Source of the DNA: an uncultured Lachnospiraceae bacterium
GTDB taxonomy: Bacteria; Bacillota; Clostridia; Lachnospirales; Lachnospiraceae
Length of the DNA: 34,470 bases
Direction of reading: 5' to 3'
NCBI GenBank assembly: GCA_947166015.1
Contig: CAMVCQ010000013.1
Coordinates: 1 to 34,470 of the forward strand
Made by a program: the position numbers and the translations under genes
Shown: positions 3 through 19,783 of the stretch, in pieces
Numbering within the stretch: position 1 is the stretch's first letter
Layout: each line of letters starts with the position of its first letter
The notes under the pieces: model-generated
What the model saw: only the letters and a program-made list of their open reading frames with translations
Told to the model about the DNA's origin: nothing
Databases searched by the model: none

Positions 3-2390
3 GTAAATGTAGTCGCCGTAAACTGTTCTTTTGGTATGCAGCCTTCTGACGAAAAAGATAAAGGTCTTGATAAAAACATAAAAGCCATAGATGAAAGGAT
101 CATCAAGCTCGGAAAAGAGGGTGTACTTACGGTATTTGCAGCCGGAAACGAAAGCATGGATATAGACGAAAACCCCTACGGTATGCCTTTTGAAAATGAC
201 GATACATATACGATACTTACCGGTGCGGTTGATTACAAAGGAGAGGTATCCTGTCTTTCAAATGTAGGAAAAGATCACGTCGATCTGATGGCTCCGGGCG
301 CTTCGGTTCTGACCACCACGCATCACAGCAATTCGATCGATGGATTGGATCAGACATTTAATCCATCAATCTATCCAAAAGAAATGATAAACAGCCTGTG
401 CAGAGTATATGATGATTTTTCAAATGGAATAAACAGAGTAAAAATCATAGACGACATTGTCGAAAACGGAAACAATGCTATGGTCTTAAGCAAAGGTGAA
501 GAAGACATCCATGGAGATAAAAATAACGGCTGTCTGAAGATCCACATCAATACTGCCGAAGAAAGAACAAATGCACTACCGAGATTTAACTACAAATTAT
601 TTTTCGATGTGAGCAACTTGAGCTTCAATTCCGATGAGGATGTATATATATCATTTGCTCTATCAGACAGCGGATATTCGAGGTCCAGCTGGTATGTTGT
701 GAATCGTACACTCGATGATGACTCAGATGCCCAGCTTGTAAGGGCAAAGGACGGAAAGGTGTATATCTCGGTAAGCCTGATACCATTTGTAAACAGCATA
801 TCCGACCACTACGGAAAAGATATCTATCTTGATTCATTGGCTATATCAAAAGATATCAAAGACCCAAGTGTTTTCGGCAAGTATGACAATGTATCCGGAA
901 CATCGTTTGCCGCACCTATGGTTACGGGAGCTATCGCAAGACTTGCATCCCTGTATCCTGACGACAACGCACTTACCCGCAAGGCAAAGCTTTTGGCCGG
1001 AGTAAAAAAACACGATAAACTGACTGATGCCTGTCGAACCGGAGGAACACTTGATGTATCAACATTTGCAGACTTAAAAGATATAACAATTCCCGACAAG
1101 CAGTACAAAATAAAGAGCATCACTCTCAACAAAACAAAAGCTACATTGGAATACGGAAGCACCCTGACGCTAAAAGCTACCGTCAATCCTTCATACGCTG
1201 ATGATACTTCGTGTACATGGAGTGTAAATAATGCCTCCTACGCTTCTGTTTCATCCGCGGGCAAAGTAAAAGCAAAGAAAAAAGGAATCGGTCATACCGT
1301 AAAAATCACCTGCAAGGCAAATGACGGATCGGGCAAAAAATCAACCTGCAAAGTAAGCATCAAAAAAGCTTCAAAAACAAAGTCAGTTAAGGCAACTAAA
1401 AAAGCAGTGTATGACCTTGCAAAAGAAAAAAGCGATGATAAATACAACAGGGTTACCATCAGCAAAGTCAAAGATATAATCGATCTTGATACAAGATCAG
1501 ATCGCGAGATATGTACGGCGTACGTCAACCAAAACATATTTGAAAACCCTGATATAAGCTCGATCGACGGGCTCAAGGTGATACACGAATTCATGTCAAA
1601 AAATGAAACCAGGCACTATGATACATTGGCAAGAATGATCTCCATAAGAAGAACGGAAAAAACACAAAAGTATAATTATTATGATATAAACGGTGACGGA
1701 TGCAAAGAGATGTTTTATATGGCATCAAATGGAAAAAAAGCAGAGATCGATGTCTTTTGGTTTGAGAAAGAAACAAGCTTTGTGAAGGATTCGGGAATCT
1801 TCAAAAACGTAACCGGCATTTACAAAAACCCCAAGAAAAAAACAATAGTAATTGTTTCAAAAAAAGGTAAAAAAACAACATATACAGAAGCGAAGCTTGA
1901 CTCAAAAAATGCATTAAAAACAGTTTCAACATACGAAAAAAACAACAATAAATACGCAAAAAATACTAAGTCTGTCAAGAAAGCAACCTATGATAAATAT
2001 ATTAAAAACATCAAGAAACTAAAGAAGCTTTCCTACAAAAAAATAACCCTTGATGGCACGTCTGCAGCTGATTCCGAAACCGCAAAAACAGCGCCATGGG
2101 TTCTATCCATAGAAGACGGCAAGCCTGTTTTTGATCCGGAAAAAATAAATGATATAATCGGTGAAACAGAAGCCATGGAAATAGAAATTGAATCGGAGGG
2201 CGTTCCGCAAAAAGCCGTTACCTTCCAGATGTACTATGATAATAAATACGAAATTCTCATAGACGTTTTCACCGACGGTCCAAGAAAAGGAAAAATATCA
2301 ACTATAAGTGTGTCCTACATTGAATGCCCACCGGGAAACTCCGGTTTTATCGAAAGGTGGGATTTCAAATACGGCAAGGACGCTGAATGA
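3..2390 (+). CDS. Secreted subtilase (S8) with Ig-like domain, 5' end outside the window
   Basis: The reading frame is open to the left edge, and the codons before the first ATG (36) still read like subtilase (VVAVNCSFG), so the true start and the catalytic Asp and His lie outside. Numbering from Met36, the oxyanion Asn is N38 (FAAGNE) and the nucleophile is S290 in GTSFAAP. These two are about 252 residues apart, against about 66 in subtilisin, so a domain of roughly 185 residues is inserted between them. Residues about 365-445 form a Big_2-type Ig-like domain. The lysine-rich tail has a calcium-loop-like DINGDG near residue 548 and is otherwise unrecognised. The protein is probably extracellular or wall-attached and processes proteins. 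The gene overlaps the downstream hydrolase by 4 bp (ATGA), suggesting co-translation. Confidence 0.88.
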   Translation, partial: VNVVAVNCSFGMQPSDEKDKGLDKNIKAIDERIIKLGKEGVLTVFAAGNESMDIDENPYGMPFENDDTYTILTGAVDYKGEVSCLSNVGKDHVDLMAPGASVLTTTHHSNSIDGLDQTFNPSIYPKEMINSLCRVYDDFSNGINRVKIIDDIVENGNNAMVLSKGEEDIHGDKNNGCLKIHINTAEERTNALPRFNYKLFFDVSNLSFNSDEDVYISFALSDSGYSRSSWYVVNRTLDDDSDAQLVRAKDGKVYISVSLIPFVNSISDHYGKDIYLDSLAISKDIKDPSVFGKYDNVSGTSFAAPMVTGAIARLASLYPDDNALTRKAKLLAGVKKHDKLTDACRTGGTLDVSTFADLKDITIPDKQYKIKSITLNKTKATLEYGSTLTLKATVNPSYADDTSCTWSVNNASYASVSSAGKVKAKKKGIGHTVKITCKANDGSGKKSTCKVSIKKASKTKSVKATKKAVYDLAKEKSDDKYNRVTISKVKDIIDLDTRSDREICTAYVNQNIFENPDISSIDGLKVIHEFMSKNETRHYDTLARMISIRRTEKTQKYNYYDINGDGCKEMFYMASNGKKAEIDVFWFEKETSFVKDSGIFKNVTGIYKNPKKKTIVIVSKKGKKTTYTEAKLDSKNALKTVSTYEKNNNKYAKNTKSVKKATYDKYIKNIKKLKKLSYKKITLDGTSAADSETAKTAPWVLSIEDGKPVFDPEKINDIIGETEAMEIEIESEGVPQKAVTFQMYYDNKYEILIDVFTDGPRKGKISTISVSYIECPPGNSGFIERWDFKYGKDAE

Positions 2391-7935: not shown

Positions 7936-7964
7936 TTGACACGAAAAAAAAACTGTGCTATGAT
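7936..7964 (+). promoter_or_regulatory. Promoter of the amt gene
   Basis: TTGACA (7936-7941), 17-bp spacer, TATGAT (7959-7964). Transcription would start near 7971, just before the leader terminator. Confidence 0.8.
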
Positions 7965-7981
7965 GCATAGCGTTGAGGCAA

Positions 7982-8018
7982 GGGCGTCTCGGAGAAATCC
8001 GGGGCGCCTGTTTTTTTT
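7982..8018 (+). terminator. Leader terminator / attenuator upstream of amt
   Basis: A 12-bp stem (7982-7993 with 7998-8009, nine Watson-Crick and three G-U pairs) closes a GAAA tetraloop and is followed by eight T (8011-8018). It sits between the promoter and the amt RBS, so it can stop transcription after only about 45 nt. That is a premature termination site, suggesting regulated readthrough of the ammonium transporter gene. Confidence 0.75.
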
Positions 8019-8082
8019 GCAAAATAATATGGAGTGTAAGCAATACTGCCTCGCCTATCACTCCGGATTGGGGGAAAGATTT

Positions 8083-9840
8083 ATGGAAGAATTGATGTCA
8101 ACATTAAACGGCAACCTGTTTGCCGTGTGGTTCCTGATAGGAGCCGCGCTGGTATTCTGGATGCAGGCAGGCTTCGCAATGGTGGAGTCGGGATTTGCAA
8201 GAGCGAAAAACGCAGGCAACATCCTTATGAAAAATCTGATGGATTTTTGTATCGGATGTGCGGTGTTTATCCTCATAGGTTTTGGACTCCTTTTGGGAGA
8301 AGACCTGTTTGGGTTTATCGGAAAGCCCGGTTTCGACATTTTTACATCATATCAGAACTTTGACTGGTCAAACTTCATTTTCAACCTTGTGTTCTGCGCA
8401 ACAACTGCTACCATCGTTTCGGGAGCGATGGCAGAAAGAACCAAGTTTTTGAGCTACTGTGTCTACTCAGGAATCATTTCCGCTCTGATCTATCCGATCG
8501 AAGCACACTGGATCTGGGGAAACGGCTGGCTGGCACAATGGGGATTCCACGATTTTGCAGGGTCGTGCGCAATCCATATGGTCGGCGGTATCTCAGCTCT
8601 GATCGGTGCAAAAATAGTCGGAGCGAGGATCGGTAAGTTCGAAAAGAACAAAGAAGGCAAAGTCACAAAAGTCAACGCCTTTCCAGGTCACAACCTGGTG
8701 ATCGGAGCACTTGGTGTATTTATCCTGTGGCTCGGCTGGTATGGTTTTAACGGAGCAGCCTGTACTTCTACAGATCAGCTGGCTTCGGTATTTGTAACAA
8801 CTACAATCGCACCATCGATCGCAACAGTTGTATGTATGGTATTTACCTGGATCCGCTACGGTAAGCCCGATGTTTCGATGTGCTTAAACGCATCACTTGC
8901 TGGACTCGTGGCTATCACCGCACCCTGCGATGTGACGGATGCTACAGGATCTATCATAATCGGTGCTGTTGCAGGACTTCTGGTAGTATTCGGAGTATGG
9001 TTACTTGATTACAAGCTTCATATCGATGACCCGGTTGGCGCCGTGGCAGTACATATGATGAATGGTATCTGGGGAACTATCGCAACCGGACTTTTTGCAA
9101 CAACTACTGCTCCGGGAAATGATACTTTGACAGGGCTTTTCTACGGAGGAGGATTTGACCTTCTCATCAAACAGTGTGTCGGAGTACTTACCGTAGGAGC
9201 TTGGACAGCGGTTTGTATGACAGTAGTATTTTTGATCATCAAAGCTATCTTTGGACTTCGCGTTTCCGAAGAGGAAGAAATCGAAGGACTTGATCTCACA
9301 GAGCACGGTCTTGCATCTGCTTATTCGGGATTTAGTATAATGGATGTTTCAAACTCAGCTATGCTTGCAAATGAAAACACAAGCCTCGGAACAGAGGACT
9401 ACGAGCAAGCGAGTGAGGCGAAGATAAATGCCTCCGTCCCTGTTGAAAATGTCGCCAAGGAGATGGCGGGAACATCTCTTGATACAGGAATATATAAGGT
9501 TGTTATCATCACAAAACTGTCCCGGTATGACAAGATGAAAAGAGCACTCAATACTCTGGGCGTAACCGGAATAACCGTTACTCAGGTAAGCGGCTGCGGT
9601 ATCCAAAAAGGAGCCGGAGAAATGTACCGTGGAGTTGAGATGGATATGACCCTTTTGCCAAAGATCAAGTTAGAGGTGGTAGTAAGCAAAATCCCTGTTG
9701 AAAGCGTGATAGAAACTGCCAAAAAAACTCTGTATACCGGCAAGATCGGAGACGGAAAAGTATTTGTTTATCCTGTCAGCCGTGTAGTTAAGATAAGAAC
9801 AGGTGAAGAGGATTTTGCTGCATTGCAGGATGTGGAATAA
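8083..9840 (+). CDS. amt: Ammonium transporter with C-terminal P-II domain (Amt-GlnB fusion)
   Basis: 585 residues from ATG 8083, which has GGGGGAAAG just upstream. Residues about 1-410 are an Amt channel with about eleven membrane helices, the DFAGSCAIH segment (first pore His) and DPVGAVAVHMMNG (second pore His). After a linker of roughly 55 residues, residues about 465-585 are a complete P-II domain (YKVVIITKLSRYDKMKRAL..., TGKIGDGKVFVYPV). The T-loop reads MYRGVEMDM: the equivalent of Tyr51, the uridylylation site of enteric GlnB/GlnK, is Met. Control by nucleotide or 2-oxoglutarate binding to the fused domain, rather than by uridylylation, is the likely mode. Expression is probably attenuated by the leader terminator. 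ATG 7936, seen further upstream, lies in the promoter and was not used. Confidence 0.93.
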   Translation: MEELMSTLNGNLFAVWFLIGAALVFWMQAGFAMVESGFARAKNAGNILMKNLMDFCIGCAVFILIGFGLLLGEDLFGFIGKPGFDIFTSYQNFDWSNFIFNLVFCATTATIVSGAMAERTKFLSYCVYSGIISALIYPIEAHWIWGNGWLAQWGFHDFAGSCAIHMVGGISALIGAKIVGARIGKFEKNKEGKVTKVNAFPGHNLVIGALGVFILWLGWYGFNGAACTSTDQLASVFVTTTIAPSIATVVCMVFTWIRYGKPDVSMCLNASLAGLVAITAPCDVTDATGSIIIGAVAGLLVVFGVWLLDYKLHIDDPVGAVAVHMMNGIWGTIATGLFATTTAPGNDTLTGLFYGGGFDLLIKQCVGVLTVGAWTAVCMTVVFLIIKAIFGLRVSEEEEIEGLDLTEHGLASAYSGFSIMDVSNSAMLANENTSLGTEDYEQASEAKINASVPVENVAKEMAGTSLDTGIYKVVIITKLSRYDKMKRALNTLGVTGITVTQVSGCGIQKGAGEMYRGVEMDMTLLPKIKLEVVVSKIPVESVIETAKKTLYTGKIGDGKVFVYPVSRVVKIRTGEEDFAALQDVE

Positions 9841-9911: not shown

Positions 9912-11330
9912 ATGATTCATGAAGAGTGTGGCGTTTTCGGAGTGTATTCAGACACTCCTTACGCTGTTGCAAAGGATGTTTACTACGGGCTGTATGCCCT
10001 CCAGCACAGGGGTCAGGAAAGCTGCGGAATAGTTGTAAACGACGACGGGGTATTTTTCGCGAGAAAAGATCCGGGCGAGGTACATACTGTTTTTGACGAA
10101 GAAACACTCGAAAGCCTTCCCGACGGCAATATGGCCGTAGGACATGTGAGGTATTCGACAACGGGTGGCGACAACAGAAACAATTGTCAGCCGATGCAGG
10201 TCAACCACCAAAAAGGAAAAATGGCTCTCGCGCACAACGGAAATATAAGTAATGCTTATCGATTGAGAAGCGAGCTTGAGCTCAGTGGGGCCATATTTCA
10301 CTCCACATCCGACACAGAAATAATAGCGTACCTGGTTACGAGAGAGCGCCTTGTACACCCCACTATAGAGGACGCTGTTTTGGCAACCATCCCCCATCTT
10401 GAGGGTGCTTTTTCAATTGTCCTGATGTCTGCAGCAAAGCTTATCGCCGTACGCGATCCCCACGGATTCAGACCGTTGTGCTATGGAAAAACCGATGACG
10501 GAAAGTACATCGTAGCGTCGGAAAGCTGTGCATTGGAAGCTGCGGGAGCATCATTTATCAGAGATTTAAAACCGGGAGAGGTACTTGTTTTTTCCAAAGA
10601 AGGGATCAAAAGTCTCTCTGCACATATCGAGAAAAAAGAGAAAAAAACATGCATTTTTGAATATATATATTTTGCGAGACCGGACTCTGTTATAGACGGA
10701 ATTTCAGTACACGAAGCCAGGACAAAAGCCGGAAGGATACTTGCAAGGAATGACAAAAAAGACATAGCGGATGTGGTTATAGGTGTACCTGACTCGGGAC
10801 TTGATGCTGCTCTCGGATACTCATACAGCTCAGGTATCCCATACGGGATCGGACTTATAAAAAACAAGTATATCGGAAGAACTTTTATCTCGCCCACGCA
10901 GTCTGAACGCGTAAATCAGGTTCGCATCAAGTTAAATCCTATACGATCAACGGTTGAGGGAAAAAGGATCATCCTGATTGACGACTCTATAGTAAGGGGA
11001 ACGACAAGCGGCCACATAGTCAAGCTTCTTCGTGAGGCAGGAGCAAAAGAAATCCATATGAGGATATCTGCACCTCCGTTTACTCATCCGTGCTACTACG
11101 GGACAGATATCGACTCTACCGAAAACCTGATCGCAAACAAGCACAGCGTAGAAGAAATTGCAAAAATAATAGGCGCCGACTCGTTGGCATTTTTGCCGGT
11201 CGACGCTCTGAGTGAAATGGTCGGAGGAACGGGTTACTGTGACGCTTGCTTTACCGGCAAGTATGCAACTCCCATCCCGGAGATCACTTCAAAAGATCGT
11301 TTCGAGGCTAAACTGTCACAACGACAGTAG
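9912..11330 (+). CDS. purF: Amidophosphoribosyltransferase (PurF), Fe-S type
   Basis: 472 residues. It catalyses the first committed step of purine synthesis, transferring glutamine amide nitrogen to PRPP. The class-II glutaminase nucleophile is C6 after a short propeptide (MIHEE), followed by GVFGVYSD. The PRPP loop reads IILIDDSIVRGTTS. The four cysteines that bind the 4Fe-4S cluster in Bacillus PurF are matched: one in TCIFEYIYFARPDS, one in FTHPCYYGTD and two in GYCDACFTGKY. AGGAGG precedes the ATG. The gene stands apart from other purine genes and follows amt, so ammonium uptake and a glutamine-consuming step are adjacent. The stop codon lies inside a hairpin. Confidence 0.96.
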   Translation: MIHEECGVFGVYSDTPYAVAKDVYYGLYALQHRGQESCGIVVNDDGVFFARKDPGEVHTVFDEETLESLPDGNMAVGHVRYSTTGGDNRNNCQPMQVNHQKGKMALAHNGNISNAYRLRSELELSGAIFHSTSDTEIIAYLVTRERLVHPTIEDAVLATIPHLEGAFSIVLMSAAKLIAVRDPHGFRPLCYGKTDDGKYIVASESCALEAAGASFIRDLKPGEVLVFSKEGIKSLSAHIEKKEKKTCIFEYIYFARPDSVIDGISVHEARTKAGRILARNDKKDIADVVIGVPDSGLDAALGYSYSSGIPYGIGLIKNKYIGRTFISPTQSERVNQVRIKLNPIRSTVEGKRIILIDDSIVRGTTSGHIVKLLREAGAKEIHMRISAPPFTHPCYYGTDIDSTENLIANKHSVEEIAKIIGADSLAFLPVDALSEMVGGTGYCDACFTGKYATPIPEITSKDRFEAKLSQRQ

Positions 11331-11380: not shown

Positions 11381-12649
11381 TTACATATCAGCTTTTTTCT
11401 CAAGATCATTCTCCTTTTTCTTAAATCCAAGTGCGCTTCCAATGGCCGCTGCCAAAAACAGGAAGAACAACATTTTTACAGGGAAACAAAGCAGGCACAG
11501 CACCGCAACTGCTATAGGCTTTTTCATCTGTGCACCAAGGCAGGCTGCCGTGACCATCCCCGCAGCAAACACAAGGTGAGGCAGGTCATAACCGAAGATA
11601 AAAATGCCCACACCAAAGCCCATACAAACGCAGGCAAATATCAACGGGAAAAAATGCCCTCCTTTTAATCCAAGTTTGATACACATACTTGTAAGTATCA
11701 GTTTAACAACTGCAATTCCTATCAAGACAAGCGGCAAAAATGTTTTGAATGTCCCTGTCAGTTCACCCATCTGCTCCTCACCGGAAAAGGCTGCCATAGG
11801 CACAACAGTGATGACCGCTCCCAAAGCAACACCGCAAAGCGTTTCTTTGATAATGCCCGGAACAACTCCGGAAATTTTTTCAAATATAAACTCACAACCC
11901 ATAAAAATATAAGCCATTATAATGCCTATAATTAAATAAAGAATAATTGCTACAAAATCAGGGATCGTAAATGAAACTACATCAAACGAAGGAAATCCTT
12001 CCATCGCCGCTCCGAAAAACTCTCTCAAAAGATAGAATGCGATCAACCCTCCGGCCACCGCACTTCCGTAGAGAACAAGCTTCATAGGCTTTGGCAGCCT
12101 GATCCCCAGAGCTTCTTCTTTGGCGAGCTCAACCTCGGTTTCCTCAACTGCAAAAATACCAAACAAGGGAACATGAAACAGGACACCGAGCGTGACTGCC
12201 TCACCAATCTCGGAATACTCTTTTTCATGTTCTTTTGCGTACTTGACATTGTCTCCAACCCAATAGCAAAGACCTACGATCACGCCTGTAAGCCCTGCCT
12301 CCGGTCCGACACTCGATGCAAAAACAAGTGGAAGAAATGCAGCTATGAGCATCACTAACATTTTTGAATAATCATAGTGTCCGTCTTTTTTTACCTTTGT
12401 CATGACGGTTTCAAGCTCTTCAGGATAGTCTCCGAAAAACTTCCTGACAATGCCTATTATCAGTCCACCGATCGCACACAGAGCGATAGCATAACCCGGA
12501 AACTGAACTGCTTCGGGAAGCTTTTCCCACAAAAGTCCGGTCACATAGCTAACCGCTTTCAAAAATCCCCAAATAACAACTCCTGTCACAGCTCCCAAAA
12601 CTACTGCAAAAGCTATGAGCTTGACATTATTTAATATCCTTTTAAACAT
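11381..12649 (-). CDS. ClC-family chloride channel/antiporter
   Basis: A 422-residue membrane protein with about ten helices. The selectivity segment SSVGPEAGLTG (near residue 113) corresponds to the GxxGPE anion-binding motif of ClC proteins, and VPLFGIFAVEETE near residue 160-170 is a further ClC-like conserved segment. No CBS domains are present, so it is a short prokaryotic form. It moves chloride or a similar anion across the cytoplasmic membrane, possibly coupled to protons. AGGGGG lies eight bases before the ATG. It follows the ParB-like/BMP gene after about 73 bp on the same strand, so co-transcription is possible. I found no fluoride-riboswitch-like fold upstream. Confidence 0.87.
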   Translation of the reverse strand: MFKRILNNVKLIAFAVVLGAVTGVVIWGFLKAVSYVTGLLWEKLPEAVQFPGYAIALCAIGGLIIGIVRKFFGDYPEELETVMTKVKKDGHYDYSKMLVMLIAAFLPLVFASSVGPEAGLTGVIVGLCYWVGDNVKYAKEHEKEYSEIGEAVTLGVLFHVPLFGIFAVEETEVELAKEEALGIRLPKPMKLVLYGSAVAGGLIAFYLLREFFGAAMEGFPSFDVVSFTIPDFVAIILYLIIGIIMAYIFMGCEFIFEKISGVVPGIIKETLCGVALGAVITVVPMAAFSGEEQMGELTGTFKTFLPLVLIGIAVVKLILTSMCIKLGLKGGHFFPLIFACVCMGFGVGIFIFGYDLPHLVFAAGMVTAACLGAQMKKPIAVAVLCLLCFPVKMLFFLFLAAAIGSALGFKKKENDLEKKADM

Positions 12650-12722: not shown

Positions 12723-14573
12723 TCACCCAATTTCTATATTAGCATTTATCCAATCCATATTCAATAGTTTTTCCGTTGTGATTTTTTCCATGGACGATGT
12801 CTGCAGTGGTCCGTCCTTTGTATATATCTCTCCGTCAAATGGATCGTACCCGTTCACGATACTGTTTTTGAGCATCGATATAAGCTTCGCCGTAGTGTGC
12901 GGGATCCTCGGAGCTCTCAGTTCCACAACTCCCATGTTCAGTCCAAACCAATAGTTTGCCGCATTTCTGTTTTTCAAAAGCTCATTGATATCCCAAGCAC
13001 CACTTAGCACCGCCTGGACTATTATTACATAAAACTTACCCCAAGAATAATACGGTGTCGCGATATGGACATTTTTGCCGTCTGCAATCTCATACAGACC
13101 GGACCTTGGCAGTGCACCTTTTTGGGCAGGATACTCGATATCGGCGTAGAATCGTACACCTCTTTCGGTCCATTTTTGTGTTGATATATCATCTTCTCCG
13201 GAAATGGCGATAACCCTGCAGTCAGGAGCGATCATAGATACTCCTATCGCAAAAGCGTTTAGACTTGCGTTTTCTGATGTGCGGCGGACATAGCCTATTT
13301 TTCGCTCATTGCCCGCACTGTGGTTGAGCATCAGATCCGCTGCCAAAACTCCCGTCAAAAATGTCGCCTCGTATATCCTTCCTTCATAGCACCTCACTGA
13401 CGGCGATATCTGACCGGCAGAGCAGTTCAAAAGCTTGAGACCGGGGTTTTCCACAGCTACCCTTTTGGCATCCGCGAGCATATCCTGTGTCACGGTAAAT
13501 ATAACCTCGCATTTATCTGCCACCGCGAGGTCAAGAGCATCCTTTACGCCTGTGCTCTCATCAGCCACATAGCAGGAAGTGACTACATTGTCATCCATCA
13601 TCTCCTCTACATAAAGGCGCCCTGCCTCGTGCGAATCGATCCATCTGGATTGCTCGATATCACAGTCATAGACAAACCCAACACGAAGCGGTTTTGATGA
13701 AGTATATTCTTTTTTTCCGGTGAGAAGTTTTTTGAGTCCCGACACGGTCTCAACGGCTTCAGGTGCCTCGAACAGAGTCAGCAGATCATCGAAGTTCATA
13801 TGAACTTGCAGCTCCGCAGAGGACATTTTTATATTACTGCTGATCTGGTCGTCTGTATCGCCGAGTATCGTTTTGAACGGGAAGATCATCAAATACAGGA
13901 AAAATGCACTGCTCGACTCCTTTTCTCCATCTGTCGGAAACAACTTGAGGTATTGTTTTCTGAAACGATAGAAAGCGAATTTCAAATCTCTTTTTAAGTC
14001 CTCGGGCCACTGCGAATCCAGATCGTGACCTATCAGGTCGGCAAGCTTTTGGTATGAGCCCGGTTCGGAAAGTACGATGATATAGTTGCCGGTTGCCTCA
14101 TAGAATTTCAGATATTCCTGATAAACCTTGTATTCTTTTGTATCGGACTCCACAGGGATCAGACGTGTCACATCACAGGTGAGAAACTCGCTCTCGCAGT
14201 ACAGCGAAACCGAAACCCTTTTGTTGCCCTCCTGTACATAATAATCATTCATGTATTCGTAGACTTTGATCGCGTCACGAACTCCCTCCTGCATCACGGA
14301 ATCATGCAGATTTGACCACTTGATCGCAAATTCCGTGCCATCATCAAAAAGAGGCATGAAGTTGTTTGCAAAAGCATTGTTGCGGCCACGTTCTTTGTTT
14401 CCGACGATACGCGAAATAGGAAGCTCTATCAGACCGAGAGACACCTCATTTTTGATCTGCGCCTGACTTACTATCTCATCAAGTACAGGCAAATAAGGGT
14501 CCACCCCTTCACGGTTTGCCTTTCTCACGGCGTCCTCCGCCCTTTTTTTTGCCTCTCTGTACGCTTCCCTCAT
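12723..14573 (-). CDS. Cytoplasmic ParB-like / BMP (nucleoside-binding) fusion protein
   Basis: 616 residues with no signal peptide or lipobox: it begins MREAYREAKKRAEDAV, a charged helix. Residues about 35-125 resemble the ParB/sulfiredoxin N-terminal fold (ELPISRIVG..., DAIKVYEYMNDYYVQEGNKRVSVSLY). A helical stretch follows to about 285. Residues about 290-530 match the BMP/PBP1 ligand-binding fold (LRVGFVYD, RIYEATFLTGVLAADLM, KIGYVRRTSENASLNAFAIG), which in secreted relatives binds nucleosides for ABC uptake. No permease or ATPase of that type is adjacent. A cytosolic ligand sensor or nucleotide-dependent regulator is therefore inferred. RBS GGGGGA lies nine bases before the ATG. It is divergent from the GntR operon and may be the first gene of a transcript with ClC. 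Confidence 0.75.
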   Translation of the reverse strand: MREAYREAKKRAEDAVRKANREGVDPYLPVLDEIVSQAQIKNEVSLGLIELPISRIVGNKERGRNNAFANNFMPLFDDGTEFAIKWSNLHDSVMQEGVRDAIKVYEYMNDYYVQEGNKRVSVSLYCESEFLTCDVTRLIPVESDTKEYKVYQEYLKFYEATGNYIIVLSEPGSYQKLADLIGHDLDSQWPEDLKRDLKFAFYRFRKQYLKLFPTDGEKESSSAFFLYLMIFPFKTILGDTDDQISSNIKMSSAELQVHMNFDDLLTLFEAPEAVETVSGLKKLLTGKKEYTSSKPLRVGFVYDCDIEQSRWIDSHEAGRLYVEEMMDDNVVTSCYVADESTGVKDALDLAVADKCEVIFTVTQDMLADAKRVAVENPGLKLLNCSAGQISPSVRCYEGRIYEATFLTGVLAADLMLNHSAGNERKIGYVRRTSENASLNAFAIGVSMIAPDCRVIAISGEDDISTQKWTERGVRFYADIEYPAQKGALPRSGLYEIADGKNVHIATPYYSWGKFYVIIVQAVLSGAWDINELLKNRNAANYWFGLNMGVVELRAPRIPHTTAKLISMLKNSIVNGYDPFDGEIYTKDGPLQTSSMEKITTEKLLNMDWINANIEIG

Positions 14574-14617
14574 TTGATCACATCCCCCTGATATAGATCA
14601 CTTTTCGTTATACTGTT

Positions 14618-14676: not shown

Positions 14677-14705
14677 ATTATACAATTATTCTGAATTTTT
14701 GTAAA
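14677..14705 (-). promoter_or_regulatory. Promoter of the ParB-like/BMP gene
   Basis: On the minus strand: TTTACA (14705-14700), 17 bp, TATAAT (14682-14677), about 100 bp upstream of the start codon. Confidence 0.7.
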
Positions 14706-16870: not shown

Positions 16871-17023
16871 GGAGGTAGTGTGAAAAATCACACTGATATG
16901 CTGATTTTTCACACGGCTATTTGTGCCGGAGCGTCACAAATAGCCACTGATGGCAGACGAGAACTGGATGTTCTCGTCGCCACTCCGTCGCTACGCTCCG
17001 GAATGGGAGGTAGTATGAAAAAT
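16871..17023 (+). repeat. Hairpin-rich leader with duplicated RBS and start codon
   Basis: GGAGGTAGTGTGAAAAAT (16871-16888) recurs as GGAGGTAGTATGAAAAAT (17006-17023), 135 bp (45 codons) apart and in the same open frame. In between lie a 13-bp perfect inverted repeat (16878-16890 with 16902-16914), an 11-bp one (16915-16925 with 16935-16945) and a 13-bp stem with one bulge (16951-16964 with 16970-16982). The 9-nt loop of the second hairpin (CCGGAGCGT, 16926-16934) is the exact complement of 16993-17001, directly before the second RBS. This looks like an insertion that rebuilt the translation start. Confidence 0.75.
16948..17006 (+). repeat. Dispersed 59-bp repeat, copy B
   Basis: Gap-free match to 5776-5834. 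The stem GGC-A-GACGAGAAC, loop TGGAT, GTTCTCGTC-GCC is perfect here apart from the single bulged A. Changes relative to copy A fall mostly in the stem and largely preserve pairing. Confidence 0.78.
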
Positions 17024-19783
17024 TCAAAAAAAATCGCAGCTGTGGTCCTTACATTGTCATTGTTGTGCTCTGTCATTGGAACTCCGGCGACCGACAGGGC
17101 AGTGGCAAAAAAACAGGAAGTATCGCTGAAAAAAACAAGTGTTACACTTAGCATTATTCAAAACAAAAAAAAGATCACCCACGAATCTGCAAAGATCAAG
17201 GTGAAAAAATCAAAAGGCGTCAAGATCAAAAAGATCACTTATTCTGTTGCAAAAAGCAAGATTGCCAAGGTCAGCAAAACCGGAAAGGTGACCGCCAAAA
17301 AAGCCGGCGCAACAAAGATCACAGTCAAGGTGAAATATAAATACAAGAACAAAACAAAAACAAAAAACCTTGTCTGTAAGGTAAAGGTTCAAAACAAATA
17401 CAAAAATGTCCTGTCCGGATTAACCCTGAAATACAAGTCTTACGCTACATTTGTCGGTGGCAGCAACAGTATCAATCCACTCTACAATACAACCGTAAAG
17501 ATGACCGCACAGTTCGATGCGTGGGATTGCCTGAAAATGACGGTGAAAAACCCATCTATCGCTACAGTTGGGCAGGACGGCTACATTGAAGGCAAAAAAG
17601 CCGGTACCACAACGGTGACTATCGCTTCTACTGACGGGACCGGACTCAAGGTTACCGCGAAGCTGATCATTTTTCCTACAAGAAAAGATATGACAGAAAA
17701 AGACGACCTCTACAATAGCGTCCGAGAGGATTATCTCGAAAAGCTCCAAAGCGGTTGGGACGAGGAAGACAAAAAGCGATTTATCCATCCTGACGGTACT
17801 ATAGAATGGAGCCAAGATAGCCAGAGGGAAATCCAATATGAGGAAGATATCGAAGCAATATGTGAAGAGTATGCAGAGCTTGGAAAGCAAGAGGACAATA
17901 CTCCTGAGGATGCTCTGGTTTCTATTTTGTCCACTACAAGAAAAATGATCGAGGATGAAAACGGAGATGAAGAGAATGAATTTATAAATATCTTGCGCGA
18001 AAAGCTGATCGCGCCGATCAAAGCTGCCCAAAATCTGGACGAGTTGATGGACGTCAGCGAAGAATTTGTAAAAAATGGTCTTCCGGGATTCATCTTGGGA
18101 GAAGGCTTTACGAGCGAATTGCTCGGTGATACCAAAGAATTGCTTGATAATGTCATGAACGGAAAGGCTGAACCACCGAAAACACCTGTAGATGTCAGAG
18201 AGACATACCTTCCTAAGCTCAAATTCCAATCGTATATGTCCGTAACAATGGGTGGCTCCGCAAAAGATATAAAAGCAGAAAAAGATCAGATCAAAAGAGA
18301 GATGAAAGTACTTGGTATGGAAGATGTGCTTCAATCCTCTTTGGATTCATATCACAGTATGCTTTTAGATATCTCAAAGCATGCCTTGGATCAGGAGGAA
18401 GACCCGACGAAAAAGCTTAAATTGTCTGAGATTGAAGACAGTCTTCCTCATCTGAAGCCGGCGGAACACTACCGAAATAAAGGATACAAGCTTACCGATG
18501 AAGACTATGTATTCTGCCCAAATATCAGCCCGTATAAGTGCCTTGATAAGTACATGAAGGAAGAAAACCTAAACGATCTCAAGCTGTATTTGTCAGTTGC
18601 TGTTACTGCTCCTTTTATGCAAAACATCAGGAGTAGTCTCAGGATATCAAATCCTGCAGAGGTTTCCGAAGACGGGAAGCTTTCAGAAATGTATGAGGAG
18701 CAATATCAAAAAGGATTGTCAGAAATGGAAAACCTGATCCCATTTGACCTGGATCAGATCTACACAAAAAAGCACTACTCAAAAGAATTCAGAGATAGCT
18801 TCCAAAAAGTTATCAATGAATTTCACAGTGAGTACAAAAAAGCCATAAATACCTGCGGTTACGGTCCTACAGTCCGTGCCAACATGCTGAAAAAATTAGA
18901 CAAAATGAAAGTCTATAGCCTGTGCCCGGATGATAAAACCTATGAAAAACTCCGGATTCCCTACGATCTGACAACGGCAGAGGAAGGCGGTAACCTCGCA
19001 GATAACCTGTTGAAAGTATATGCTTATTGTGCCGATATGGAGCGAATGACTATAGGTGCCAAAGAAACCAGCATAGATTGGTGGTATCCGGATGAGAAGG
19101 TATTTGACAGCCTCTTGCCAAAGGAGAATAACGCATTTTTCTATCCTTACACAAATATAGCTGTATTCTTTCACGGAGGCATCGGTACAGATTCATTATT
19201 CACTTCGAATCCTGAAGAGGATCCGGAAATCGATACAAAAAATCTGGCGTATTTGGCCTGCACTATCGGACACGAACTGGGTCACGCTTTTGACTTCCAG
19301 GGATCGTGCTTCGATGAGGATGGTTATCTGGTCGATATCTGGGGAGATGATGATAAATCAGTCTATCAGCAAAAAGTAGACAAACTGGCAGATATATATG
19401 ACTCGATCAATGTGTGTACGATACCGTCCAAGAAAAAAGCATACTACCAAGACGGCCACACTGTTGTCGGTGAAGCCATGGCAGATCTGGGAGGAACGGA
19501 AATCGCTCTTCGAATACTAAAAGAAAAATACCCCGATCGCGACGACCTCATCCGAAAGTTCTACATTTATACAGCGGAGCAGTGGATCGATACCTCCTGG
19601 GATGATTATTCTGAATGGCAGGTCGAGGCAGTTCAGGAAGACGTTCACCCAAGTTCGCGCGCCCGTACCAATGGAGTATCATCAATGATGGAGGATTATT
19701 ATCGAGTGTTTGATGTAAAGGAAGGCGATCCGATGTTTATATCGCCTGAAGACAGAGTCACTCTTTGGGAGAAATCCAATTAG
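17015..19783 (+). CDS. Secreted M13-type (neprilysin-like) metallopeptidase with Ig-like domain
   Basis: 922 residues from ATG 17015, which has GGGAGG upstream and begins a signal peptide (KK, then AAVVLTLSLLCSVIG). Residues about 35-125 and 125-215 are lysine-rich Big_2-like Ig domains. The C-terminal part is an M13 peptidase: NAFFYPYTNIAVFF, zinc motif H753-E754-xx-H757 (GHELGHAFD), third ligand E820 with D824 in GEAMADLGG, and the tail HPSSRARTNG. The H753-E820 spacing (67) is close to that of neprilysin (63). It probably cuts extracellular peptides. A GTG at 16880 is in frame and would add 45 residues read from the repeat element ahead of the signal peptide; I regard it as the relic start. 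Confidence 0.88.
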   Translation: MKNSKKIAAVVLTLSLLCSVIGTPATDRAVAKKQEVSLKKTSVTLSIIQNKKKITHESAKIKVKKSKGVKIKKITYSVAKSKIAKVSKTGKVTAKKAGATKITVKVKYKYKNKTKTKNLVCKVKVQNKYKNVLSGLTLKYKSYATFVGGSNSINPLYNTTVKMTAQFDAWDCLKMTVKNPSIATVGQDGYIEGKKAGTTTVTIASTDGTGLKVTAKLIIFPTRKDMTEKDDLYNSVREDYLEKLQSGWDEEDKKRFIHPDGTIEWSQDSQREIQYEEDIEAICEEYAELGKQEDNTPEDALVSILSTTRKMIEDENGDEENEFINILREKLIAPIKAAQNLDELMDVSEEFVKNGLPGFILGEGFTSELLGDTKELLDNVMNGKAEPPKTPVDVRETYLPKLKFQSYMSVTMGGSAKDIKAEKDQIKREMKVLGMEDVLQSSLDSYHSMLLDISKHALDQEEDPTKKLKLSEIEDSLPHLKPAEHYRNKGYKLTDEDYVFCPNISPYKCLDKYMKEENLNDLKLYLSVAVTAPFMQNIRSSLRISNPAEVSEDGKLSEMYEEQYQKGLSEMENLIPFDLDQIYTKKHYSKEFRDSFQKVINEFHSEYKKAINTCGYGPTVRANMLKKLDKMKVYSLCPDDKTYEKLRIPYDLTTAEEGGNLADNLLKVYAYCADMERMTIGAKETSIDWWYPDEKVFDSLLPKENNAFFYPYTNIAVFFHGGIGTDSLFTSNPEEDPEIDTKNLAYLACTIGHELGHAFDFQGSCFDEDGYLVDIWGDDDKSVYQQKVDKLADIYDSINVCTIPSKKKAYYQDGHTVVGEAMADLGGTEIALRILKEKYPDRDDLIRKFYIYTAEQWIDTSWDDYSEWQVEAVQEDVHPSSRARTNGVSSMMEDYYRVFDVKEGDPMFISPEDRVTLWEKSN

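Follow-up and report, generated by a model that had tools for sequence, protein, structure and literature searches.

The ParB/Srx-BMP fusion and its locus

The window, that is, the whole stretch of DNA analyzed here, comprises 34,470 nt of contig CAMVCQ010000013.1 (GCA_947166015.1) from an uncultured Lachnospiraceae bacterium, and all positions are given in forward-strand numbering. Positions 12723..14573 of its minus strand (ATG start, stop included) encode a 616-aa protein that joins a ParB/sulfiredoxin (Srx)-like N-terminus to a BMP domain. The ParB/Srx fold, identified with VIA-align and Foldseek, spans residues 46-141 (14151..14438, minus strand) and contains the sequence EGNKR (residues 115-119; 14217..14231, minus strand), a GxxR phosphate-binding (P) motif with an acidic residue before it. 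A helical region matching the DUF4032-like part of BMP-free relatives follows (residues 146-260; 13794..14138, minus strand), and the remainder is a ligand-binding BMP domain of the PnrA/AtzT type, recognized by PF02608 and by structure, at residues 293-616 (12726..13697, minus strand), in agreement with the domain border near residue 290 proposed in the original prediction. Upstream of the start codon, the same strand carries a Shine-Dalgarno-like AGGGGG (14584..14589), read from the sequence, and a putative promoter, TTTACA-17-TATAAT (14677..14705; 11/12 positions), picked up solely by a consensus scan. A gene resembling CLC-type chloride channels lies 73 bp downstream of the fusion gene on the same strand (11381..12649, minus); the comparison of neighbors revealed that it is not kept beside fusion homologues, so it is probably outside the system.

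Because 31 full-length homologues could be aligned with 51 invariant columns, the reading frame at 12723-14573 is not a chance ORF. The residues invariant across this 31-member alignment include EGNKR (115-119), R64, F68 and M73-P74 in the N-terminal half, and W311, H315, C384, S385, Y396, W511-G512 and Y515 in the C-terminal half, with residue 120 nearly so. Structural models built with AlphaFold from 31-sequence alignments reached a pLDDT of 87.6 and a pTM of 0.80 for the full-length fusion, and a pLDDT of 86.9 for its N-terminus.

Elsewhere in the window, an ammonium transporter whose C-terminus resembles a fused PII (GlnB) domain is encoded at 7936-9840 (plus strand), next to purF (9912-11330), and 16880-19783 (plus strand) encodes a secreted protein of 967 aa in which bacterial Ig-like repeats at the N-terminus are combined with an apparent M13-type metallopeptidase (HELGHAFD).

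The N-terminal domain adopts a predicted ParB/Srx fold

Superposition of residues 46-141 with VIA-align yielded a Z score of 9.3 against ParB (7bnk; 80 residues, rmsd 2.7), followed by Noc (8.8), Srx (6ky4, 8.7), SerK (5x0b, 6.8) and SbnI (6nr6, 6.4), and a Foldseek search recovered Noc (7ol9, E 1.5e-5). The GxxR motif (G116-N-K-R119) is invariant in 31/31 fusion homologues, and the EGNKR of the fusions aligns with DGNHR in BMP-free relatives, DGHHR in SerK and GERR in Spo0J, which supports the earlier designation of EGNKR as a nucleotide-type motif. Helices are predicted for the region of residues 146-260 in the AlphaFold model; PF13224 matches the corresponding region in relatives and returned no match in the host genome.

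The Pfam ParB_N model (PF02195) matched none of the 31 fusion members even at E 1, the window protein had no NCBIfam match at E 1 (and hence none to TIGR00180 or to the SerK model NF053625), and the profile of the fusion N-terminus retrieved a single weak match in the PDB, to Srx (E 0.78). Given this weak direct match, the sequence link was made through the BMP-free relatives. Alignment of the two profiles with hhalign (fusion N-terminus, A2; BMP-free relatives, A4) covered 203 columns with a probability of 98.8 and an E-value of 8e-17. All 19 PDB matches of the A4 profile at E<=1 were to ParB/Noc, Srx, SerK (or its Pyrococcus homologue) or SbnI, and in genome searches the same profile recovered its own family first and then proteins that are clearly Spo0J/Noc-like. 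The AlphaFold model, the fold searches and the sequence profiles thus place the fusion N-terminus, as far as prediction goes, in the ParB-CTPase/Srx fold superfamily, the sequence relationship being an indirect one through the BMP-free relatives. The ParB/sulfiredoxin-like character proposed for this region is accordingly borne out by structure prediction, with which the profile bridging agrees.

The fusion is a cytosolic BMP protein

The C-terminal domain of the window protein exceeds the cut-off of the Pfam Bmp model PF02608 (25.5 bits, cut-off 24.1), which matches 31/31 fusion members. Residues 293-613 match AtzT (1.8e-18) and 3s99 in sequence searches of the PDB, and AtzT matches the profile of the fusion family with an E-value of 1e-62. 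The structural matches follow the same pattern, with Z scores of 30.6 for AtzT (6pi5), 29.7 for 3s99, 22.5 for PnrA (2fqw) and 21.4 for Med (2hqb).

In AtzT, guanine is stacked between Tyr45 and Trp194 and is bonded by Ser97, the Phe98 N, Glu165, Asn218 and Asn220 (PMC6834077). The position of Tyr45 is occupied by Trp (Trp311) in 101/101 fusions, retaining an aromatic stacking position, and that of Ser97 by Thr in the window copy, retaining the hydroxyl. In contrast, Glu165, Trp194, Asn218 and Asn220 are not retained in the alignment of the fusion family, leaving the class of ligand uncertain. On these sequence comparisons, a flat ligand is plausible for the BMP domain. Guanine itself is unsupported as the ligand, with most of its contacts in AtzT not conserved, and the sensing of a nucleoside put forward originally is for the same reason a conjecture, as is the proposed nucleotide-dependent switch.

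Over their first 45 residues, the 31 fusions have a maximum 12-residue hydropathy of at most 1.44 and no lipobox, and a signal peptide was found in none of the 31 homologues. With a ParB-like fold predicted as well, neither of the two outcomes named beforehand as refuting the original prediction occurred. Nearly all ordinary BMP proteins of the related genomes, by comparison, score between 2.98 and 4.11, and several of them present a lipobox and adjacent ABC genes; the lone low value among them (1.15) belongs to a protein read from an internal ATG, which may lack its signal region. There is no transporter partner of the fusion within the window, and the BPD_transp_2 permease model (PF02653) has no match in the 98.5%-complete host genome, whereas the identical search matches 12 of 14 control genomes. 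The sole other Bmp protein of the host genome is a second fusion. The fusion is a cytosolic protein without an export signal, as had been predicted for this BMP fold together with the lack of a transporter. It shares its C-terminal fold with the BMP/PnrA family (Z of about 30 to AtzT 6pi5 and 3s99) and the aromatic residue at the position of Tyr45, and departs from that family in its location, in its lack of signal peptide and transporter, and in the AtzT residues listed above (PMC6834077).

Paired membrane-anchored BMP proteins were also observed in three loci from relatives (L161 1111-3361, L162 1377-3558 and L167 6231-8415), where their neighbors are large membrane ORFs that resemble sensors and not ABC genes, which hints at a further role of BMP outside transport.

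The fusion family is paired with a metallophosphoesterase

Most fusion genes are directly followed by a gene encoding a metallophosphoesterase (MPE) of about 205 aa, and in a few cases this gene lies beside the fusion gene on the opposite strand. With neighbors called on stop-to-stop frames, the MPE is found within 400 bp of the fusion in 84 of the 101 rows of the tree, and 2 more rows end at contig ends. The two reading frames are usually abutting or overlapping, with a 4-bp overlap in the Collinsella genome from RefSeq; Collinsella WP_320677882.1 (fusion) and WP_320677883.1 (MPE) exemplify a typical pair. Among 98 related genomes, the fusion and the MPE occur in the very same 35; Fisher's test gives 2e-27, a value that takes no account of kinship and overstates independence, since this strict co-occurrence is partly inherited. 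The co-presence also holds where the two genes lie apart (e.g. G051, G067, G088 and G097). Across the phylum, the ParB-like domain was detected in 19/299 genomes and the MPE in 19/299, with both in 18; for each of the two single-gene exceptions (one with the MPE only and one with the domain only), a congeneric sister species has both. The genomic pairing of the fusion family with this MPE is thus strongly supported. The survey of gene neighbors proposed with the original prediction brought out a near-invariant MPE partner that the prediction had overlooked.

The partner MPE scores above the PF00149 cut-off and shares the GD, GNHD, H and GHxH metal motifs with calcineurin-like MPEs, including the YfcE group. 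It nonetheless forms a family of its own, with only 19-21 bits against the YfcE model TIGR00040 (cut-off 56) and with a first motif in which D is invariant and DxE replaces DxH in 80/95 sequences.

The remaining neighbors (CLC channel, ABC exporters, sugar permeases and cobW-like genes) recur in only a handful of related loci and were set aside.

A probable conserved core and its C-terminal additions

Phylum-wide, BMP-free relatives of the N-terminal domain either stand by themselves or bear a 4Fe-4S tail, and the majority adjoin the same MPE. Those of 318-401 aa are all in MPE-bearing genomes and every one examined adjoins the MPE, as does one of 208 aa, while those of about 125-170 aa amount to hardly more than the ParB-like domain and do not adjoin the MPE. 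In four loci (L142-L145), BMP-free ParB-like partners with C-terminal 4Fe-4S ferredoxin motifs stand beside the same MPE. The conserved core therefore appears to be the ParB-like domain plus the MPE, to which BMP is one among several domains added C-terminally; that an iron-sulfur tail can take the place of BMP suggests that sensing is modular.

Distribution of the family and origin of the window copy

Among the 99 relatives searched, 45 had some match, 35 of them with a full fusion and the remaining 10 with ordinary BMP proteins only. At least 569 stretches of public genome contigs encode relatives, and the best 80, which were kept, stem from Lachnospiraceae, Oscillospiraceae, Coriobacteriaceae, Erysipelotrichaceae and a few bins labelled otherwise. 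The fusion family is large: its loci number in the hundreds across Clostridia, Coriobacteriia and Erysipelotrichia, and its carriers likewise number in the hundreds among bacteria of the gut and rumen, with Collinsella as an example of a human gut genus.

The second fusion of the host genome, on contig 35, is 33% identical to the window copy, and the typical fusion-MPE pair of the host lies on a contig other than that of the window. In the tree, the window copy has a long branch (0.7 changes per column) and falls in a starred 21-row clade made up mostly of metagenome bins, several of them from rumen, and within it in a starred 5-row clade without MPE. Every genome with a window-type copy (G000, G002, G007, G011, G012 and G027) also encodes a typical fusion and one MPE, and hence the window protein is a fast-evolving, derived second paralogue without an MPE of its own, a point that the original prediction also overlooked.

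One fusion gene of a relative (G043:C25:1109-2865) is apparently broken, with split frames and two TGA stops, and the same relative has an intact copy.

A putative regulator of the MPE

About as much speaks for as against our preferred reading, in which the fusion would be a protein of the cytosol that regulates the adjacent-type MPE in response to a ligand and to NTP. The GxxR motif of the N-terminal ParB/Srx-fold domain would hold a nucleotide, and the BMP domain would close around a small metabolite, probably a flat or aromatic one, that stacks against the invariant Trp311. In a typical member, ligand and nucleotide state would together control the MPE of the neighboring gene, which would hydrolyze a phosphoester in a messenger, a nucleotide or a phosphoprotein; we infer from this arrangement a physical contact between the two proteins and control running from the fusion to the MPE. 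The window's own protein, with no adjacent MPE, fits this reading less well, and may have as its target the MPE encoded alongside the host's other fusion copy, or may have acquired a new partner. Further points weigh against it: the ParB/Srx fold includes enzymes such as SerK and Srx, so that the domain could be catalytic; its GxxR motif reads EGNKR instead of the GERR of ParB; the loss of AtzT's guanine-specific residues leaves the ligand class uncertain; and the co-occurrence with the MPE is in part inherited.

The main rival, possible though clearly the less probable of the two, is that of a kinase-phosphatase pair, in which the ParB/Srx domain would be a phosphotransferase like SerK or SbnI with a metabolite or protein as its substrate, the MPE would remove the phosphate and the BMP domain would sense or present the substrate. 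SerK is an ADP-dependent free serine kinase (PMC5120207); SerK and SbnI belong to the same superfamily, and their acid-G-x-H/K-R type of motif recurs in the fusions and in the BMP-free relatives. The P motif is of the SerK type (acid-G-N/H-H/K-R), the BMP-free relatives match SerK chains in the PDB as well as the NCBIfam SerK model (E 5e-5 to 6e-4), and a phosphoesterase partner in nearly every genome would suit such a pair. However, the NCBIfam scores, at 19-22 bits, lie below the cut-off of 380, the similarity to SerK and SbnI is weak and covers about 55 residues, the partner domains differ, and a kinase role is hypothetical here. The window protein itself has no NCBIfam match at E 1, the VIA-align Z scores rise from SerK (6.8) through Srx (8.7) to ParB (9.3), and ParB and Srx have the same fold. 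Regulator and kinase both predict nucleotide binding and coupling to the MPE, and it is phosphotransfer that sets them apart.

It is unlikely that the fusion is a DNA-binding transcriptional or chromosome-organizing regulator akin to ParB, Noc or LacI with a BMP domain binding the inducer. Foldseek aligns about 230 columns of Noc/ParB, helical region included, but VIA-align superposes only residues 46-141 on ParB and leaves the helical part out. The C-terminal fold class is common to LacI-type regulators, and Med (2hqb), which has the BMP fold, is designated an activator of comK transcription; against this, Pfam HTH families are absent from the window protein and from all 31 homologues, no ParA neighbor was noted, and the minimal partners of 125-170 aa leave little room for an HTH.

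A misannotated or vestigial substrate-binding protein, whose BMP domain would serve an ABC importer despite the fusion, accords with the BMP fold and with the RefSeq name of the Collinsella member ('BMP family ABC transporter substrate-binding protein'), but was rejected as highly improbable given the missing signal peptides, the missing PF02653 permease and the separate ordinary BMP lipoproteins with ABC genes in relatives; as a name for a cytosolic ParB-fold/BMP protein, a transporter part is wrong.

Relationship to described systems

The almost constant tie of the fusion family to one MPE suggests that the two proteins are a bacterial regulatory pair not described before; no literature on the fusion or its MPE pair was found in the open-access papers searched, including searches for DUF4032 and for BMP with metallophosphoesterase. 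More broadly, it is an even call whether a ParB/Srx-fold NTP-binding protein and its dedicated MPE make up a so far undescribed signalling system of two proteins in Bacillota and Coriobacteriia, in which the sensor on the ParB-like partner can be exchanged (no sensor, a 4Fe-4S tail or BMP). The near-perfect pairing makes this a concrete, testable two-protein system.

The ParB-CTPase fold has newly been recognized as a general NTP-binding module, its members being described as binding CTP, ATP or GTP in a 2025 survey whose search model was PF02195, applied at its gathering cut-off (PMC12704722). The fusion shares with this superfamily (ParB, Noc, Srx, SerK, SbnI) the fold of residues 46-141 and the GxxR P motif, and differs from the proteins described there in being missed by PF02195, and thus by the search model of the survey, and in having no HTH family match. 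The main text of the survey makes no mention of a BMP fusion, a 4Fe-4S/ferredoxin fusion or an MPE pairing (PMC12704722). A further ParB/Srx-like branch is possibly represented by a 234-aa protein with a DDGSHR motif, encoded at 1360-2061 (minus strand) of locus L190.
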